DNA of 20,037 nt from a virus (IMGVR_UViG_3300042691_032571:1-20037); one strand, 5' to 3'. Shown: positions 8,124 to 15,577, counted from the first letter of the stretch. A program made the numbers and translations. The notes: generated from the letters alone by a model not told the origin.

Positions 8124-8362
8124 TGAGCCACATGTCAGAATTAGCTGCATCTGTTGAAATAGCGAAAGGAATGATGGGAATGGATGACATGAATAAAAAA
8201 TACGCCGCAGCAATGAAGCGCGCAGAAACGCTTGAAGAAATCCTTGAAGAGGTTTGCTCTTATCTCGAAGGCAGGGCCGACATGATCGCTGATAAGGACG
8301 GTGACGCGCCAAACGCTGAACTGTTTTTGTTGTCTTGGATTAGATCGGAGTTGAGCAAATGA
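8123..8362 (+). CDS. Small helical hypothetical protein
   Basis: This is a 79-residue, mainly helical protein with a likely coiled coil at residues 25-50 (KKYAAAMKRAETLEEILEEV). The start overlaps the primase-helicase stop, with AGGAGG nine bases upstream. No family is recognised; the length and position match the small accessory proteins common in phage early operons. Confidence 0.6.
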   Translation: MSHMSELAASVEIAKGMMGMDDMNKKYAAAMKRAETLEEILEEVCSYLEGRADMIADKDGDAPNAELFLLSWIRSELSK

Positions 8363-8559
8363 GCGACGATCTGGTGAAATGGCTGCGCGAAGTAGCTGTT
8401 GAAATGCGTGTCGTTGGAATGGCGAGGTGCGACGAAGCCGCCGACCGCATAGAGGCGCTTCAAGACGCACTGCGGTTTTATGCCGAATACACGCCTGTGT
8501 TTTCTCAACAGGATTTCCGTGCTGTCGCCCGCGCTGCGCTGGAGGGGAAAGATGATTGA
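8359..8559 (+). CDS. Small phage protein with CDEAADRIEAL motif
   Basis: This is a 66-residue protein containing DLVKWLREV and ARCDEAADRIEALQDALRF, a motif seen in many short phage proteins of unknown role. ATG overlaps the preceding stop (ATGA). Helix predominates. The 98-residue protein at 9742 carries a related ASEAADHIEALHRL stretch, so the two may share a domain. Confidence 0.65.
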   Translation: MSDDLVKWLREVAVEMRVVGMARCDEAADRIEALQDALRFYAEYTPVFSQQDFRAVARAALEGKDD

Positions 8560-8794
8560 CGAAGTGACCGGAGAAGAGAAGGCAATCCAAGCGCAGGAAG
8601 CTGCGGATTGCATTGGCAAGGCTCTCGCCACCCATTCAAGTGGCGCTGTGTTCTTTGGTCTCGCTCTATATCTGGCGAGTTATCTGTACCACAAGGTGAA
8701 AAAAGAAGATCAGGATGAACAGTTGGATGCTTTTGCGAATGTTGCGCGGGCGTTACTGAACCATGCTCACACAAGCGGTCAAAATATGAATTAA
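8552..8794 (+). CDS. Small hypothetical protein with hydrophobic helix
   Basis: This is an 80-residue protein starting MIDEVTGEEKA; ATG 8552 is chosen for its strong GGAGGGG site five or so bases upstream, and it overlaps the previous gene by 8 bp. Residues about 29-46 (SSGAVFFGLALYLASYLY) are hydrophobic and may be a buried or membrane helix, followed by a charged KVKKEDQDEQ stretch. The function is not recognised. Confidence 0.6.
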   Translation: MIDEVTGEEKAIQAQEAADCIGKALATHSSGAVFFGLALYLASYLYHKVKKEDQDEQLDAFANVARALLNHAHTSGQNMN

Positions 8795-8819
8795 AAATGT
8801 ACATAGATGGAGTGAGGAT

Positions 8820-9059
8820 ATGAGCCACGTTAACTGGCAATACGATGCGCTGAAAAGTAATCTGAAATCTCTAATCGAAGATGAGAACGCGCCGAATAAG
8901 GACGTGCTCAACCAATGCTTATATCACTTCGAACGATATGAGAAATGGATGGCGCGGCTACAGGAGGCATATCACTTCTTGGAGCACGACAATAAGCACT
9001 ACAAACGCAAGCTAGAAAAAATCGAACGTCTGATAGATCGGGTGACTTCAAATGATTGA
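8820..9059 (+). CDS. Small helical hypothetical protein
   Basis: This is a 79-residue protein rich in charged and aromatic residues (YHFERYEKWMARLQEAYHFL), probably a helical hairpin or coiled coil. A GGAG/GAGG stretch precedes the ATG. The end overlaps the oxygenase gene by 8 bp. No family is recognised. Confidence 0.6.
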   Translation: MSHVNWQYDALKSNLKSLIEDENAPNKDVLNQCLYHFERYEKWMARLQEAYHFLEHDNKHYKRKLEKIERLIDRVTSND

Positions 9060-10282: not shown

Positions 10283-10444
10283 TGCGGATAAATGCGGAAT
10301 AACTGCGGATAAAATCGTCGATTTGCGGATAAAATAGCATAAGTCATTGAAAACACTTGCGGAATAGGATTTGCGGAGAATTGCGGATAAATGCGGATAA
10401 ATTAGCGTAAGTCATTGAAATCATTGGTGCGGAGAATTTGCGGA
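10283..10444. repeat. Iteron cluster: ten TGCGGA repeats, candidate replication origin
   Basis: TGCGGA occurs, all in the same orientation, at 10283, 10293, 10304, 10324, 10358, 10372, 10382, 10392, 10428 and 10439, mostly extended to TGCGGATAAA, TGCGGAATA or TGCGGAGAAT. Many steps are 10, 11 or 20 bp, so most copies share one helical face. The block is AT-rich compared with its surroundings and holds no gene. Iterons next to an HTH gene and downstream of a primase-helicase suggest an origin; an operator array is the alternative. Confidence 0.7.
10324..10420. repeat. 29-bp direct repeat inside the iteron block (two copies, 68 bp apart)
   Basis: Copies at 10324-10352 and 10392-10420 begin with TGCGGATAAA, continue through TAGC and end with TAAGTCATTGAAA; 27 of 29 positions agree. 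The conserved part outside the hexamer suggests a second protein site or a duplicated origin half. Confidence 0.75.
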
Positions 10445-10542: not shown

Positions 10543-10890
10543 ATGCAGACTGAGATGAAAACAGACGCGGAGGCGGGCGACGGCGTGAGGCAGTCGGCGC
10601 TCGACATTGCGCCGATTGGCAAGCGGTCACCGCCACGGCATGACGAGATCCTGATCGCGCAGACAGGCGACTGGGTGCTGACGCTGGTCGGGGAGTGGAG
10701 CAACGAGCGGTGGGTCTCGTGCAAGCTCTACTACGTCGGCGAGGAGACACGGCGGCGCACGCTGTTCTATGTCGGCGTGAGCGAAGGCCGGCATTCTCGA
10801 AACCGGGATGTCGCCTATCTGCAAAAACATCATGCGGAGATTTTGGAGTGGATCGTCGCGCAGGCGATGGCGACGCGGAGGACGGCATGA
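10543..10890 (+). CDS. Hypothetical protein
   Basis: This 115-residue protein is not recognised. The first 30 residues are polar and probably disordered (TDAEAGDGVRQSA). The middle is beta-rich with several tryptophans (GDWVLTLVGEWSNERWVSC, then KLYYVGEETRRRTLFYVGV), and the C-terminal 35 residues are helical (VAYLQKHHAEILEWIVAQAM). GAGGGCGAG precedes the ATG. It is the first gene after the terminator, so it needs its own promoter or readthrough; no convincing promoter is visible in 10505-10542. Its stop overlaps the next start. Confidence 0.65.
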   Translation: MQTEMKTDAEAGDGVRQSALDIAPIGKRSPPRHDEILIAQTGDWVLTLVGEWSNERWVSCKLYYVGEETRRRTLFYVGVSEGRHSRNRDVAYLQKHHAEILEWIVAQAMATRRTA

Positions 10891-11513
10891 GCGGGCAAGG
10901 GAAGGCGCGGGGGCGCGCACAGGCGTCCACGCCTGAGGCTGGCCCCGACAGGCCCGTGGCGCCGTGGATGGAGACGGTGGGGACATACATCGCCGGGCAG
11001 GCGGAGGTGGACGAGACCGACGCCGTCGCCATCGAGATGGAGCGCAAATGGGGCGTTGATAGGCTGCGGATGCTCGTCAGCGTCGAGATGCGCGAGAAGT
11101 TCGATAGGCAGCGATATCTATTCAACCGCGCCATTCACTACGGCGAATATTCGGAACTGATCAAAGAAGCGCGGCGCATGGCTACGGCGTGGAGGGCCCT
11201 CGACAAGGCGGCGGAGGCGGCTCACAGGCCGCCGCAGCCGCCCGACGTGTGGGAGGCGGTCACCAGCGAGGGGGTGGTGCTCTCCATCGTCCGCACGAAC
11301 GAGGACGCCCGCAGAGTGCTGGCGGACGGCCGGGCGGTGCAGGTGTACACGCTCGACGAGATCGCGCACCTGATCGAAGCCTATCCGGCAATAGTGAAGG
11401 CAAAGGCGACGTTCCCCGGGGCGACCGTCACCGCATCCCGCAGGGAGATCCGCGACCCGCTCGACGGCGTGGCGGATAGCCGCGGGCTGCTGAATGACCC
11501 TATTCCGTTCTGA
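10887..11513 (+). CDS. Hypothetical phage protein
   Basis: This is a 208-residue protein starting MSGQGKARGRAQAS; ATG 10887 overlaps the preceding stop (ATGA), and the longer open frame upstream overlaps that gene and is rejected. After a disordered, basic start, the body is helical: VDETDAVAIEMERKWGVDRL, REKFDRQRYLFNRAIHYG and ARRMATAWRALDKAAEAA, then a mixed segment WEAVTSEGVVLSIVRTNEDA and VQVYTLDEIAHLIEAY. The second half suggests a small beta-alpha domain. I do not recognise the family. It converges on the leftward anti-restriction island. Confidence 0.65.
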   Translation: MSGQGKARGRAQASTPEAGPDRPVAPWMETVGTYIAGQAEVDETDAVAIEMERKWGVDRLRMLVSVEMREKFDRQRYLFNRAIHYGEYSELIKEARRMATAWRALDKAAEAAHRPPQPPDVWEAVTSEGVVLSIVRTNEDARRVLADGRAVQVYTLDEIAHLIEAYPAIVKAKATFPGATVTASRREIRDPLDGVADSRGLLNDPIPF

Positions 11514-11561: not shown

Positions 11562-11590
11562 AAGGGGCCTCTGGATACCAGAGACCCCTT
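11562..11590 (-). terminator. Terminator at the convergent junction
   Basis: A 13-bp stem with one mismatch (left arm AAGGGGCCTCTGG, right arm CCAGAGACCCCTT) has an ATA loop. On the - strand it is followed by TTTTTCTATTC, the expected T-tract, so it ends the leftward island. On the + strand only TT follows, so it may act weakly in both directions. Confidence 0.8.
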
Positions 11591-11619
11591 GGATGGCTGC
11601 CAGCGGGCTCCTGAGAGGC

Positions 11620-11817
11620 TCAGAGAGCCTGTCCCGAGAGCTGGACCTTCAGGCGGAGGAGCTCGACCACCGCCCGGGGCGTTTTTACGCGGCCGGAGAG
11701 CCAGTAGTAGACGGTGCGCTCGGACACGCCGACTAGCTCGGCCAGTTCGCGGTTCAGCATGTTCGCCTGCCAAAGCAAAGCCTTGAGCTCGTCAGGGGTT
11801 GGGGGCGTGGCGGTCAT
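11620..11817 (-). CDS. Small XRE-like HTH regulator at the end of the ArdC island
   Basis: This is a 65-residue protein with one helix-turn-helix domain: TPDELKALLWQANMLNRELA, then ELVGVSERTVYYWLSGRV and a C-terminal helix VVELLRLKVQL. ATG 11817 overlaps the upstream stop (TGATG). It is the last gene before the terminator. Small HTH genes at the tail of phage anti-defence operons, such as Aca proteins of anti-CRISPR operons, repress their own operon promoter; a similar role here is an inference from position and size. Confidence 0.75.
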   Translation of the reverse strand: MTATPPTPDELKALLWQANMLNRELAELVGVSERTVYYWLSGRVKTPRAVVELLRLKVQLSGQAL

Positions 11818-12107
11818 CAGTGATAGACCTCCAGCAGCCAGTCCCGCGCCATCCGCTCGGACCAGCATAGGCGCACGTCGCCGTGAACCGAGACGGCGCG
11901 AAATGCGTTCCCGTCGCGCCGATCCAATTTCGTCGGATTGGCCCAGCCCACGACCTGATCGAACATGGTCAGTGTCAAAGTTCCGTCACCCTCCTGTTTC
12001 CATTGGATTGGGTTGTCATATTTTTGACGCTCCTGCGGCCGCGCAGCGGCGACCGCGTCGAGCATCACGCCGCACAGGTCGGCGATGGATTTCGGCAATT
12101 CGTTCAT
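11817..12107 (-). CDS. Small hypothetical protein of the ArdC island
   Basis: This is a 96-residue protein starting MNELPKSIADL; ATG 12107 is chosen for a strong GAGGAGGG about seven bases upstream, and the longer frame is rejected. It has a helical N-terminus (IADLCGVMLDAVAAA), a beta-rich middle (NPIQWKQEGDGTLTLTMFDQ, VGWANPTKLDRRDGNAF) and an end WSERMARDWLLEVYH. No family is recognised. Its stop overlaps the HTH gene start. Confidence 0.65.
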   Translation of the reverse strand: MNELPKSIADLCGVMLDAVAAARPQERQKYDNPIQWKQEGDGTLTLTMFDQVVGWANPTKLDRRDGNAFRAVSVHGDVRLCWSERMARDWLLEVYH

Positions 12108-12117
12108 CGTTCCCTCC

Positions 12118-12345
12118 TCAATCGATGATTTCCTCGGCGCGGTGGCCCATGAAGTGCGAAATGTCGTCGAGCGCCCGTTGGGCTGTGTAGAGATCGCCGG
12201 CGGACCAGCCGACGATTTCAAAGCCCCGGCGGCGCACCTCGCGCAGGAACCGCTGCGCCTCCTCACGGTCGCCAAACACAAATGTCTCCTCGCCCCATGT
12301 CAGGTTGGGGCGAGGGAACTTCACGACGTAACGATAGAAATTCAT
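12118..12345 (-). CDS. Small hypothetical protein of the ArdC island
   Basis: This is a 75-residue protein. It opens with a strand (MNFYRYVVKFPRP), then ETFVFGDREEAQRFLREVRR, strand RGFEIVGWSAG and a helix ALDDISHFMGHRAEE: a small beta-alpha-beta layout like that of the other mini-proteins in this island. GAGGAGG lies 6 nt before the ATG. The function is unknown. Confidence 0.65.
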   Translation of the reverse strand: MNFYRYVVKFPRPNLTWGEETFVFGDREEAQRFLREVRRRGFEIVGWSAGDLYTAQRALDDISHFMGHRAEEIID

Positions 12346-12355
12346 TCCAGCCTCC

Positions 12356-12703
12356 TCAGATCGACTTGATCACGATGCGCTTCGAACGCTCAAACGTGGC
12401 GCACGCGGCGAACGCGTCCGCGCTCAAAACTTTGCGGGCGGCCTCGACCTTGATCGAGGCGAGCGCCATAAACACGCTCGGCGTCGTCACGCGACGCACG
12501 GCGGCGGGGTCCAGCGCGGCGCGCTCGACCTCGCTCACCTGCAAGCGGTGTTCGAAGCCGGGGGCGCTGGCCTCGCCGCTTTTGAGCAGCGCGTCGGCGA
12601 GTTCGGCCTTCTCGGCCTCCAGCGCCTTGATTTCTTTCGTGATGGCGACGTAGCGCTCGACCTGCTCGGCGGTGAGGGCGGGGATCAGGGACACGTTCAG
12701 CAT
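12356..12703 (-). CDS. Coiled-coil hypothetical protein of the ArdC island
   Basis: This is a 115-residue protein starting MLNVSLIPAL; ATG 12703 has GGAGG five bases upstream. Residues 10-40 form a coiled coil (EQVERYVAITKEIKALEAEK), followed by a segment FEHRLQVSEVERAALDPAAV and a C-terminal helical part. The order (coiled coil, then a short beta segment) is loosely like Gam-type or RecF-associated phage proteins, but I cannot name it. It is the first gene after promoter copy 1. Confidence 0.65.
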   Translation of the reverse strand: MLNVSLIPALTAEQVERYVAITKEIKALEAEKAELADALLKSGEASAPGFEHRLQVSEVERAALDPAAVRRVTTPSVFMALASIKVEAARKVLSADAFAACATFERSKRIVIKSI

Positions 12704-12748
12704 GGGAACCTCCAGTTCATCTACAGTTAAGCTAACCACTACTCAATC

Positions 12749-12778
12749 AGGATAGCATGAAGAAATTGCAGCCGTCAA
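12749..12778 (-). promoter_or_regulatory. Island promoter copy 1
   Basis: On the - strand, -35 TTGACG (12778-12773), 18-bp spacer, -10 TATCCT (12754-12749). The -35 box overlaps the end of ardC. About 23 of 30 positions agree with promoter copies 2 and 3, and the downstream region shares CTGTAGATG with copy 2. Confidence 0.65.
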
Positions 12779-13629
12779 GCGGCTGCAAGCTCCTCTTGCG
12801 AACCCTGCTTGCGCAGGAACTCCACGGCTTGGCTCGCCTTGCTGGCGGCGGTCATAAACGCCTGCGGGTCGTTTTTCACCAGCTCAATCCAGTGTTGGAT
12901 ATAGGCGGCGTGCTGGGTGACGGCGTCGAGCCCCAGCTCGGCGCAGAGAAACGCTGCGCCCAGCTCGGCGACCAGTTCCTCGGCCGCATATGCGTTGTCG
13001 CCAAAGCGCTTGCCAAACTGGCGGTTGCAGCGGCTCTCGTGCCCGGTCCAATGCACCAGCTCGTGCAGGGCCGTTGCGTAATAGCTCGCGCGGCTATCGA
13101 ACCGCTCGAACGCCGGCAGGCGGATCTCGTCGCCTGAGGGGCGATAAAAGGCGCGGTCGCCGCCATGGTGGATCACGGCGCCCGTGGCGGCGATGAACGC
13201 GTCACAGACCGCGTCGCGCTCGTCGGGGTTGATCGCCAGCGGCGCAGGCGCGTCGAGATCGAGACCGTCGCACTGCTCGACGTTGAACACGGTGAATGAT
13301 TTCAAAAACGGGATAGACGCCACATTGCCCGCGTCGTCGGATTTCTCGAACCGCGAGACGAACGTCACGGTCGTCCCCTTCTCGCCCTTGCGCACGGACC
13401 CGCCCAGCTCCTGCGCCTGCTTGAACGTCAGCCATTGGTTCGAGGAATAGCCATGTTCCTGTTGCGTGATCCAGAGCAGGATGACGTTCGCGCCCGAATA
13501 AGCGCGCCCGGTGCGGGCGTTCTTGGGCAGGCCCGCGTTCGTGCTGCTCCACGGCTTCACCCACGGGAGCACGCCCGTCTCCATGGCGGCGAGGATGCGG
13601 TCGGCGATTTCTTTCTGAAGGTTGCGCAT
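12775..13629 (-). CDS. ardC: ArdC-like anti-restriction protein (ssDNA-binding plus zincin domain)
   Basis: This is a 284-residue protein matching ArdC. The N-terminal domain (about 1-125; KEIADRILAAMETGVLPWVK, NARTGRAYSGANVILLW) is the ssDNA-binding DUF1738 domain. The C-terminal domain is a zincin-type metallopeptidase fold with the zinc motif HELVHWTGH (about 187-195) and the downstream EELVAELGAAFLC helix that supplies the third ligand. ArdC proteins are known from conjugative plasmids and phages and protect incoming DNA from type I and some type II restriction. ATG 13629 is chosen because GGAG lies seven bases upstream. It has its own promoter (copy 2). Confidence 0.9.
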   Translation of the reverse strand: MRNLQKEIADRILAAMETGVLPWVKPWSSTNAGLPKNARTGRAYSGANVILLWITQQEHGYSSNQWLTFKQAQELGGSVRKGEKGTTVTFVSRFEKSDDAGNVASIPFLKSFTVFNVEQCDGLDLDAPAPLAINPDERDAVCDAFIAATGAVIHHGGDRAFYRPSGDEIRLPAFERFDSRASYYATALHELVHWTGHESRCNRQFGKRFGDNAYAAEELVAELGAAFLCAELGLDAVTQHAAYIQHWIELVKNDPQAFMTAASKASQAVEFLRKQGSQEELAAA

Positions 13630-13669
13630 GGGTAACTCCATCTACAGCTAAGGTTGCGATTACCAGATC

Positions 13670-13699
13670 AGAATAGCATGAAATATTTTCACCTGTCAA
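13670..13699 (-). promoter_or_regulatory. Island promoter copy 2 (upstream of ardC)
   Basis: On the - strand, -35 TTGACA (13699-13694), 18-bp spacer, -10 TATTCT (13675-13670). The 30 bp at 13676-13705 match promoter copy 3 at 29 positions. The spacer contains TGAAATATTTTCA (13679-13691), a 5-bp inverted repeat around ATA, a possible operator. Confidence 0.75.
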
Positions 13700-13703
13700 A
13701 CGC

Positions 13704-13868
13704 CTATTTCACCTCCCTGTGGGCCACGAAATAATAAAACGGGTTGTGCGCCTTGCTGTTGAGCGCGAGCGCATGGGCCGCAGCCTCATCGCGCGAATAG
13801 AAAACAGCGACGACCGTGGCGCTGCCGGACACGGTGGGGATGATGCGTTGCGCGAGAACCTCAAACAT
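13704..13868 (-). CDS. Mini-protein of the ArdC island
   Basis: This is a 54-residue protein; ATG 13868 is chosen because AGGAG lies about seven bases upstream. The layout is strand (MFEVLAQRIIPTV), strand TVVAVFYS, helix RDEAAAHALALN and strand FYYFVAHREV. The AHALAL helix and following aromatic strand resemble those in the protein at 14397, so the two are probably paralogues. It overlaps the previous gene by 8 bp. The function is unknown. Confidence 0.6.
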   Translation of the reverse strand: MFEVLAQRIIPTVSGSATVVAVFYSRDEAAAHALALNSKAHNPFYYFVAHREVK

Positions 13869-14076
13869 GGCCTGCTCCTTTGGCGAAAGCTTCAATCTTG
13901 TTACCTAACTCAGAGCGGCAGGTGCTGAAGGTCTCATCTTCCCAGCCTGTGCCGATCAGCCAATAGCCCCAGCCCATATCGTCGCGCTCGCATTTGATAG
14001 TTAGCCCCAACTCAGCCGCGCGCTTGCGCAATTCCTTCAAGCTCTTCGCTTTGCGGTAATGTTTTTGGAATGTCAT
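13861..14076 (-). CDS. Small hypothetical protein of the ArdC island
   Basis: This is a 71-residue protein: helix KSLKELRKRAAELGLTIKC, then DDMGWGYWLIGTGWEDE and a C-terminal helix. ATG 14076 has GGAG six bases upstream inside a leader that is repeated before the next gene. No family is recognised. Confidence 0.6.
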   Translation of the reverse strand: MTFQKHYRKAKSLKELRKRAAELGLTIKCERDDMGWGYWLIGTGWEDETFSTCRSELGNKIEAFAKGAGHV

Positions 14077-14082
14077 ATCGAT

Positions 14083-14102
14083 CTCCATCAGGTGAGAGGG
14101 TG
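14083..14102 (-). repeat. Duplicated gene leader (copies at 14083, 14356 and, diverged, 14616)
   Basis: The 20 bases CTCCATCAGGTGAGAGGGTG (+ strand) at 14083-14102 recur exactly at 14356-14375, in each case just upstream of an island gene; they contain that gene's GGAG ribosome-binding site on the - strand. A diverged copy starts at about 14616 before a third gene. Confidence 0.8.
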
Positions 14103-14114
14103 AGAGTTGAAACG

Positions 14115-14348
14115 TCAGGCGCGACCCGCCTGTTTATTCAGCCACGTTATCGTCGCATCGAGCCATTCGTCGTAGCTCATGTCGCAGCCATATGCGTTTG
14201 CGGCCGCGTCATGCACGCTGCAACGCGCTTGCCACAGTTTTTCTCGATCAATGTCATCAATTAGTTCGTCGAACAAATCGCGCCCGTTATTCGTCCAGAT
14301 CGCCAGTGCTTGTGCGACGATTTTTTCGAGGCGTGTTTCATATTCCAT
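14115..14348 (-). CDS. Small acidic hypothetical protein of the ArdC island
   Basis: This is a 77-residue, helical, acidic protein (LFDELIDDIDREKLWQARCS, YDEWLDATITWLNKQ). GGAG about eight bases upstream belongs to the duplicated leader. Small acidic proteins in phage anti-defence regions are sometimes DNA mimics; the acidic centre (DELIDDID) makes that thinkable but unproven. Confidence 0.6.
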   Translation of the reverse strand: MEYETRLEKIVAQALAIWTNNGRDLFDELIDDIDREKLWQARCSVHDAAANAYGCDMSYDEWLDATITWLNKQAGRA

Positions 14349-14374
14349 CTGATTTCTCCATCAGGTGAGAGGGT

Positions 14375-14390
14375 GGGGGCCGGAGCCCCC
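14375..14390 (-). other. Intercistronic hairpin, copy A
   Basis: GGGGGC and GCCCCC arms surround a 4-base loop. It is attached to the second exact copy of the duplicated leader. No T-tract follows on either strand, so an RNA-processing or stability role is more likely than termination. Confidence 0.6.
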
Positions 14391-14396
14391 AATTTG

Positions 14397-14606
14397 TCAG
14401 TCGCGCCTGATATGCGGGATGTCGAGCGAGAGCATATGTGCCTCGTCGAGCGTCTGCGTGGTCCAGACACGCTGCTGGTGGATGATGTCGTAATTGTCGC
14501 CGGTCTGCTCTTTCAGAGCCAGCGCGTGCGCCTTGGCGGCGGACAGTTCTTCAAACGCGGCGAGGTTTTTGATGATGCTGCGGTCCTTGGGGACAACGTA
14601 AAACAT
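14397..14606 (-). CDS. Small hypothetical protein, probable paralogue of the 54-residue protein
   Basis: This is a 69-residue protein starting MFYVVPKDRSII; ATG 14606 has GAGGAG seven bases upstream. After the first strand comes FEELSAAKAHALALKEQTG, then strand YDIIHQQRVW and the C-terminal LDEAHMLSLDIPHIRRD. The AHALAL helix followed by an aromatic strand ending in H and RxV is shared with the protein at 13704, so a duplication is likely. The function is unknown. Confidence 0.62.
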   Translation of the reverse strand: MFYVVPKDRSIIKNLAAFEELSAAKAHALALKEQTGDNYDIIHQQRVWTTQTLDEAHMLSLDIPHIRRD

Positions 14607-14632
14607 GGCGTACTCCTCATCAGGTGGAAGGT

Positions 14633-14648
14633 GGGGGCCTAAGCCCCC
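14633..14648 (-). other. Intercistronic hairpin, copy B
   Basis: GGGGGC and GCCCCC arms surround a CTAA loop. It lies in the leader of the 14397-14606 gene, in the same relative place as copy A before its neighbour. Confidence 0.6.
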
Positions 14649-14655
14649 GCTTGTT

Positions 14656-14976
14656 TCAGAAATTGTAATCGTGGAACCGGCGCGGGCGCGTCGAGAGCGA
14701 ATAGCGGCTGCCGTATTTGTCCTTCCAGCCCTTCTTGCCAAGGCGGATGCGGAACGTCGGGCGCGTCGGGTCGCTCAGGATAACCCAGCGCTGTTCGTCT
14801 TGATTGGTGCAGTGGCCGACGAAGCCGCCGGGGACAACCTCAGGCGTCCACGTCGTGTCGCGGTTCGCGATCATGCCGCGGATCTCCACGGTCTTGTCGC
14901 TCACGACGCGCACGATCTCGAATGGCGTCACGTCGCTGTAGTCGATCCGGTTCGCGAAAGAGAAGGTCGAGGTCAT
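14656..14976 (-). CDS. Conserved small protein, first gene of the ArdC island
   Basis: This is a 106-residue, beta-rich protein whose pattern I have seen in phage and plasmid proteins of unknown function: YSDVTPFEIVRVVSDKTVEI, then PGGFVGHCTNQDEQRWVI, a basic FRIRLGKKGWKDKYG and a terminal SLSTRPRRFHDYNF. The many strands and the basic patch near residues 78-85 would suit nucleic-acid binding, but no catalytic residues are evident. AGGAG lies about eight bases before the ATG. Promoter copy 3 is upstream. Confidence 0.68.
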   Translation of the reverse strand: MTSTFSFANRIDYSDVTPFEIVRVVSDKTVEIRGMIANRDTTWTPEVVPGGFVGHCTNQDEQRWVILSDPTRPTFRIRLGKKGWKDKYGSRYSLSTRPRRFHDYNF

Positions 14977-15020
14977 ATTCAGCTCCTATGGTCAAGCTAC
15001 AGTAAACATCATTCACAAAC

Positions 15021-15051
15021 ATATAGGGCATGAAATATTTTCACCTGTCAA
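15021..15051 (-). promoter_or_regulatory. Island promoter copy 3
   Basis: On the - strand, -35 TTGACA (15051-15046) with a -10 CTATAT (15026-15021), spacer 19 bp. The 30 bp at 15028-15057 match copy 2 at 29 positions, including the TGAAATATTTTCA inverted repeat (15031-15043). The longer spacer would make it weaker than copy 2. It faces away from the terminase genes. Confidence 0.65.
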
Positions 15052-15100
15052 GCGCCTTTAAAAACCCTTATATTCTAGTGGGTTATGAGGGAGCTTAACC

Positions 15101-15577
15101 ATGGCGAAATCCAAAATCGAGCCTGCGCCTAAGGGGCAGGGCGAGCCGCTTAAACGCGGGCGGCCGTCTATGTATCGCCCCGAGCATTGCCAGCGCGTGA
15201 TTGAGATGGGCGAGCAAGGGAAATCCCTCACGCAAATGGCTGCGCGTCTCGGCGTGGACAAGGCGAGCGTGATTAGGTGGCGCGAAGAGCACGAAGAATT
15301 CCGCACTGCTCTCGCACGCGCGCTGACGTTGTCGCAGGATTGGTGGGAAGAGCAGGGACAGCGCGGAGTGAACGACAGAAATTTCAACGCGACGTTGTAC
15401 AACAAAATCGTCGCGTCACGTTTCCGCGAAGACTACAGCGAGCGGCACGAGATTACGGGCGCAAACGGCGGCGCGATCAAGATCGAAGCAAAGCGCGTTG
15501 ATGTTGAGAACATGGAAGAAGAGCAGATCGAGGCGCTGGAGAACGCGTTGTCGCGATTGAAGGTCGTGAACGGATGA
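15101..15577 (+). CDS. terS: Terminase small subunit
   Basis: This is a 158-residue protein. After a basic, disordered start (KGQGEPLKRGRPSMYRPEHC) comes a helix-turn-helix (GKSLTQMAARLGVDKASVIR) and then a helical segment WEEQGQRGVNDRNFNATLYN leading to SRFREDYSERHEITGANG, a pattern typical of phage small terminases that recognise pac or cos DNA. The C-terminal helix (MEEEQIEALENALSRLK) is the expected oligomerisation or large-subunit contact. GGGAG lies eight bases before the ATG, and the stop overlaps the large terminase start. Confidence 0.85.
   Translation: MAKSKIEPAPKGQGEPLKRGRPSMYRPEHCQRVIEMGEQGKSLTQMAARLGVDKASVIRWREEHEEFRTALARALTLSQDWWEEQGQRGVNDRNFNATLYNKIVASRFREDYSERHEITGANGGAIKIEAKRVDVENMEEEQIEALENALSRLKVVNG

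Follow-up and report, generated by a model that had tools for sequence, protein, structure and literature searches.

A leftward block of small genes carrying ArdC in a virus contig as a probable early, autorepressed accessory regulon

Layout and gene content of the leftward block

The window analyzed here is a whole virus contig of 20,037 bp, for which we found no match among annotated phages at the DNA level. Besides genes for a RuvC-like resolvase, a primase–helicase, a 2OG-Fe(II) oxygenase, the terminase subunits and the portal, it contains a block of exactly ten leftward genes (11620–14976), delimited by a gene caller that uses codon usage and RBS and for which the long genes of this contig served as the training set. 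This caller returns the same count as the initial annotation, i.e. nine genes of 54–115 residues plus ArdC, and both flanking genes, f10887 (10887–11513) and TerS (starting at 15101), are indeed on the plus strand. From left to right, the minus-strand genes are g1 (11620–11817, 65 aa), an HTH protein that we propose to be the Aca-like autorepressor of the block; g2 (11817–12107, 96 aa), which overlaps the g1 start; g3 (12118–12345, 75 aa), found only in the window phage and its sister L002; g4 (12356–12703, 115 aa); ArdC (12775–13629, 284 aa); g6 (13704–13868, 54 aa); g7 (13861–14076, 71 aa); g8 (14115–14348, 77 aa); g9 (14397–14606, 69 aa) and g10 (14656–14976, 106 aa). The small HTH gene annotated at the end of the block is thus g1. 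The block closes with an intrinsic terminator on the minus strand (11562–11590; a 13-bp stem with 8 G-C, then TTTCT), which separates the stop codon of g1 from that of f10887 (11513), the two genes being convergent.

Most of these genes lack recognizable families, as initially described: once ArdC and g1 are set aside, a clear PHROG match remains for g10 alone (phrog_19789, E 3e-8; function not annotated), and comparison of the window proteins with Pfam and PHROGs placed none of them in a family named anti-CRISPR. The g8 protein, noted as acidic, has a pI of 4.4 and found no match among annotated phages. The g10 protein, noted as basic and beta-rich, has a pI of 9.7 and is modeled with confidence as a small all-beta protein (pLDDT 92), for which a fold search returned viral relatives and no significant solved relative; weak likenesses to Lockin, an anti-Thoeris protein, and to MazF/Tudor-like barrels were at noise level, and both candidates were discarded. 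Relatives of g10 are encoded in early clusters of Itty13 (58%), CRP-901, fHe-Yen8-01, Pavpe01 and Bacillus phages; the Pseudomonas, Roseobacter and Yersinia phages that carry the domain in such clusters are unrelated. The same domain forms the C-terminal part of larger early proteins (~155–185 aa) in L145 (4773–5303), L146 (4755–5309) and L148 (1291–1755). The model of g2 is modest (pLDDT 82), and a fold search against the PDB gave no significant match for it.

Ahead of g9 and g8, respectively, near-identical intergenic hairpins (GGGGGCTNNGGCCCCC) lie at 14614–14648 and 14355–14390, each with a CACCTGATG leader after it; the same leader, devoid of a hairpin, precedes g7. These units may be cassette joints.

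ArdC and the other recognized cargo

The ArdC protein comprises an N-terminal ssDNA-binding domain and a zincin metalloprotease domain, and matches PF08401 (E 2.5e-40, 137.9 bits) and PF18818 (E 2.4e-50, 170.3 bits), both above the cut-offs. It is homologous over residues 4–276, i.e. across both domains, to the ArdC proteins of plasmids R388/pSa (PDB codes: 6sna and 6i89; E 9e-71), and its HELVH and EELVAELG segments align in 6i89 with the metal-binding HExxH motif and the glutamate helix, as defined in PMC7213743. R388 ArdC is a demonstrated anti-restriction protein, whose protease activity is not needed for anti-restriction (PMC7213743); unlike its R388/pSa counterparts, the window ArdC is phage-borne and its anti-restriction activity is predicted.

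The initial annotation treated ArdC as the center of the island. Among the 59 blocks compared below, ArdC is present only in the window phage and L002, which makes it a rare passenger rather than the gene that defines the block. C5 DNA methyltransferases occupy the same slot in two other phages (L062 and L304). Of 122 representatives of the protein clusters found in the relatives' blocks, the methyltransferases alone matched a family with an anti-defence reading, and almost nothing else had a named function; the recognized counter-defence cargo is limited to ArdC and two methyltransferases. Note that L003, L004 and L057, whose phage type is quite different, have ArdC genes 65–78% identical to that of the window, and that small genes are found next to these as well; ArdC thus moves between phage groups. 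Sliding-clamp-like leftward genes (DNA polymerase III beta domain) lie in or beside the block in L341 (6855–7502), L367 (4951–5604) and L244 (3228–3821).

A constant slot with a changing content

Relatives were gathered by scans with TerL and f10887, which yielded more than 100 further loci. The more distant TerL relatives, found in genomes, point to Alphaproteobacteria as possible hosts. The slot is constant: the terminase genes are separated from the f10887 homologue by leftward runs of 2–14 genes, in 63 of 64 cases the g1 and f10887 homologues are transcribed towards each other, and g1 is the last of the same-strand genes in the relatives as it is of the ten in the window. The 59 blocks encode 432 proteins with a median length of 82 aa, which fall into 150 clusters, 83 of them singletons. 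One cluster of ~100-aa proteins is present in 55 of the 59 blocks; g4 is a diverged member of this core family, scoring 28.8 bits against the core-cluster HMM, compared with 3.4 for the next best window protein. The g2 family is kept in 31 of the 59 blocks and g9 belongs to a small family found at 12 block loci. Neither the core protein nor the HTH representatives found a match in 50,697 annotated phage records. The blocks also share a leader, TGGAGAT[CT][GA]A[CT]ATG, found at 26% of block gene starts versus 1% of other genes (e.g. in L084, L085 and L072).

Comparison with L002, which comes from a 39,305-bp contig, gives the closest view of how the content changes. TerL is 99%, the portal 99.7% and ArdC 97% identical between the two phages, the packaging genes as a whole ranging from 95 to 99.7%. 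L002 retains g1–g4, ArdC and g8 (90% identical), and these six common genes are genuine, since they are under purifying selection (dN/dS 0.06–0.22; 0.06 for g1 and 0.09 for g3). In L002, the first promoter is the same but is followed by an unrelated 82-aa gene that replaces g10 and g9; g6 and g7 are missing, the first codons of g7 persisting as a scar fused to the ArdC promoter region. These differences are direct evidence of cassette-wise gene gain and loss, i.e. of the turnover that the initial annotation expected a comparison across relatives to reveal. The hypervariability that it ascribed to the small genes holds in part: genes do turn over, to a moderate extent, close pairs of blocks sharing about half to most of their genes. 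Nor is every small gene a hypervariable anti-defence candidate, as g4 belongs to the core family and g10 is a wide-ranging phage domain. A second difference between the sisters lies in the small rightward genes at 8359–9059, where L002 lacks f8820 and where f8480 and f8359 are 35% and 68% identical, respectively.

Promoters with a palindrome between the −35 and −10 boxes

The block has promoters of its own, as proposed from the outset, namely P2 (13670–13699, minus strand; TTGACA - GG TGAAAATATTTCA TGC - TATTCT), the ArdC promoter, whose spacer contains a palindrome, and P3 (12749–12778, minus strand; TTGACG - GC TGCAATTTCTTCA TGC - TATCCT), which overlaps both the end of the ArdC gene, at its stop, and a hairpin resembling a terminator (12766–12788) and in which the palindrome is degenerate, so that P3 is not a good palindrome. 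A third element, P1 (15022–15051, minus strand; TTGACA - GG TGAAAATATTTCA TG...), lies first in the block and was recognized as a 30-nt repeat of P2 (97% identical); it is devoid of a clear −10 box, matches the shared pattern exactly, and the same element precedes the leftward gene of L061. The pattern TTGAC(A/G)-NN-TG(A/C)AA-N4-T-N-CATG is found three times in the island, in the window and in L002 alike, and nowhere else on either contig. ArdC and several promoters of the block thus share one operator motif (P1–P3, with P2 ahead of ArdC).

In the relatives, the palindrome has a GAA-N5-TTC core, again between the −35 and −10 boxes, and an inverted repeat inside a core promoter, as in P1 and P2 of the window, is found at 92 sites over all blocks. 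These 92 operators lie in 246 kb of block sense strand, compared with 20 in 1,647 kb of other sequence, where they are 31-fold rarer; shuffled blocks contain 2.25 ± 1.4. The center of the palindrome is 13–15 nt from the start of the −35 box at all 92 sites, and 91 of them are intergenic and at most 110 nt from a gene start. The outer bases vary between phages (C:G, T:A, G:C or A:T) and are mostly uniform within one phage, the variable positions being 75% identical within and 41% between phages; L084, for instance, is C-type, the window and L085 are T-type and L082 is G-type. When one site is taken per locus, the outer pair is complementary in 38 of 41 loci, versus 19.9 expected. The GAA-N5-TTC pattern was chosen after the sites had been seen, so that the placement, the complementarity of the outer pair and the count elsewhere are the more independent checks. 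An initial palindrome statistic, based on loosely defined promoters and few control promoters, was weak (mean arm 4.3 versus 3.2 in shuffled sequence). No strict operator was found in 19 of 60 g1-anchored regions, among which L002 is counted because its copies are degenerate.

The nearly fixed placement of the palindromes and their phage-specific half-sites would also be expected if they had nothing to do with a repressor and marked a phage promoter class recognized by a sigma factor or activator that the phage encodes. Such a promoter class is, however, quite improbable, since the spacers are mostly 16–18 nt long and the boxes near consensus, so that no activator is needed, and since the sites bound by Aca repressors are inverted repeats located inside core promoters (PMC9410906). 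These features suggest that the promoters would work unaided and that a protein bound to the palindrome would block them.

The HTH protein g1, candidate repressor of the block

The g1 protein matches HTH_3 at the Pfam cut-off and has no match above the cut-off in NCBIfam. When the profile of its family was compared with all PDB sequences, Aca2 came first (E 9e-6), followed by the 434 repressor, nearly as good, and HigA, with Aca3 and Aca1 lower. The alignment with Aca2 is restricted to the HTH and does not include the C-terminal dimerization domain, which g1, unlike Aca2, lacks. At the sequence level, a relation of g1 to the Aca2 HTH is thus indicated, and g1 would be the protein that binds the operators and represses them.

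The g1 column best associated with the operator outer base lies in the recognition helix, Q/E/D being found with C, Y/I/F/M with T, N/R with G and H with A. This association is chemically sensible and confounded by phylogeny; it is suggestive only, because columns of the core protein g4, for which DNA binding is not predicted, reach equal or higher scores and show that relatedness alone gives such scores. As here, the promoter that precedes the aca2 operon in phage ZF40 has CGAA half-sites (GTTCGCGATTGCGAAC) filling its spacer; these half-sites (TTCG-N6-CGAA) have the same letters as the C-type operators of the blocks but the opposite orientation. The prediction that Aca2, which has Gln at the helix position, would use CGAA-N5-TTCG was rejected, as this strict motif is absent in ZF40.

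Two other roles were considered for g1. The first is that of an Xre-type antitoxin forming an autoregulated pair with a toxin, g2, the genes upstream being unrelated. There are weak matches of g1 to MqsA, HigA and other antitoxin HTHs, and the gene overlap and the palindromic operator are typical of such pairs; yet about half of the blocks have g1 and no g2, the g2 model has no significant match to a toxin fold and operators are also found ahead of genes far from g2–g1, which makes this pair very improbable. The second is that of a lysogeny (immunity) repressor, with the block as the immunity region. The resemblance of the g1 family to the N-terminal domain of the 434 repressor points in that direction, but g1 is devoid of a C-terminal oligomerization domain and would control an operon in which its own gene comes last, and the operators are located inside the block and not at the rightward early promoters; we thus regard an immunity repressor as extremely improbable.

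A probable autorepressed accessory regulon

The island is probably an accessory regulon that is expressed early from several promoters, represses itself and receives counter-defence cassettes, and would represent the window phage's version of a leftward regulon present at the same slot in dozens of related uncultured phages. Its regulatory architecture is well supported; the slot, the gene content and its turnover, the operators with their placement, the relation to the Aca2 HTH and the identity of ArdC can all be read from sequence. Each block is a chain of small cassettes, many of which begin with the same leader (TGGAGATYRAYATG) and several of which have a sigma-70-type promoter ahead of them, with a palindromic operator filling the −35/−10 spacer. 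Upon infection, the unrepressed promoters would produce an early burst of all cassettes, including ArdC, which would protect the incoming DNA from restriction. As g1 builds up, it would bind the operators between the −35 and −10 boxes and block RNA polymerase, so that the whole block, g1 included, would be turned off. Varied counter-host or counter-defence genes would come and go between these fixed elements.

On the best-supported reading, the block would work like two known kinds of systems. The first is the acr–aca operon (Aca1–Aca10; e.g. acrIF8–aca2 of phage ZF40), in which small variable genes are followed by a small HTH gene in the same operon and an inverted repeat lies within the core promoter (PMC9410906, PMC8434428). 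The block shares these features, and Aca2 is the solved structure closest in sequence to the g1 HTH. It differs from acr–aca operons in having several operator-promoters per block instead of one and in containing no recognized Acr, its known cargo countering restriction and not CRISPR. We do not class the island as an Acr–Aca operon, since it contains no known anti-CRISPR gene and g1 has no firm Aca family. The second is the regulon of plasmid p576, in which ArdC and establishment genes are distributed over several small operons whose promoters are bound by the self-repressing Reg protein, giving transient expression after DNA entry that is then turned off by the regulon's own repressor (PMC8708921). 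There too, ardC and several promoters share one operator, as do P1–P3 here. However, p576 is a Bacillus conjugative plasmid whereas the block is phage-borne, and Reg is a ribbon-helix-helix protein that recognizes paired TTATCCC heptamers beside the promoter whereas the block has a palindromic operator and, in g1, a helix-turn-helix protein.

The anti-defence module that the initial annotation proposed stands as an accessory module with its own control and an anti-restriction content (ArdC, and the C5 methyltransferases of L062 and L304); an anti-defence role of the other small genes is plausible in view of their company, size, turnover and regulation. The sliding-clamp-like gene and the near-universal core gene argue against a purely anti-defence role. 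An autorepressed early block could instead serve mainly host takeover (replication, transcription, division inhibition), with ArdC and the methyltransferases as occasional passengers, and three observations are consistent with this: the core gene is conserved beyond what an arms race would lead one to expect, g10 occurs in early clusters of unrelated phages and most block proteins match nothing. Nevertheless, ArdC and C5 methyltransferases are found in the same slot of different phages and Aca proteins are among the solved regulators closest to g1, so that we consider host takeover as the main role rather unlikely, and retain the accessory regulon loaded with counter-defence cassettes.

A bolder form of the regulon reading can be put forward tentatively, as less likely than not: the clade would carry a standardized cassette platform, in which the counter-defence genes are interchangeable. 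Many of them would have the shared leader, often together with a promoter-operator of their own, and a single HTH protein related to Aca2 would turn all of them off, its recognition helix and its operator half-site co-varying from phage to phage. If this were true, the operator would be a sequence tag for unknown counter-defence genes across the clade. There is a precedent in archaeal viruses, where anti-defence genes were found via a shared early promoter motif (PMC11065993); the idea in both cases is that small anti-defence genes can be recognized as a set by a common regulatory sequence, but the archaeal one is an archaeal promoter motif whereas the blocks combine a bacterial sigma-70-type promoter with a palindromic operator and also encode a candidate repressor. 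A palindrome between the −35 and −10 boxes combined with a g1-like HTH is in any case a checkable tag for the ~430 small proteins of the 59 blocks, most of which have no family, and the slot so tagged also takes ArdC and DNA methyltransferases. The block is therefore a promising place to look for new counter-defence genes. If g1 represses and part of the cassettes counter defences, the clade would supply new anti-restriction or anti-CRISPR proteins, and the half-site and the recognition helix, which both vary, would provide a natural series on how a repressor reads DNA.

Other features of the contig

Two further features of the window lie outside the block. Between f10055 and f10543, positions 10283–10440 contain an iteron-like array, with five exact copies of TGCGGATAAA and several variants, followed by a strong hairpin; the array, which is nearly identical in L002, is a candidate replication origin or operator array. 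At 1286–1985, between two leftward genes, lies a GC-rich stretch of ~700 bp that is not obviously coding and that displays a strong 5-nt period (GCCTN-GC units, on one strand only).
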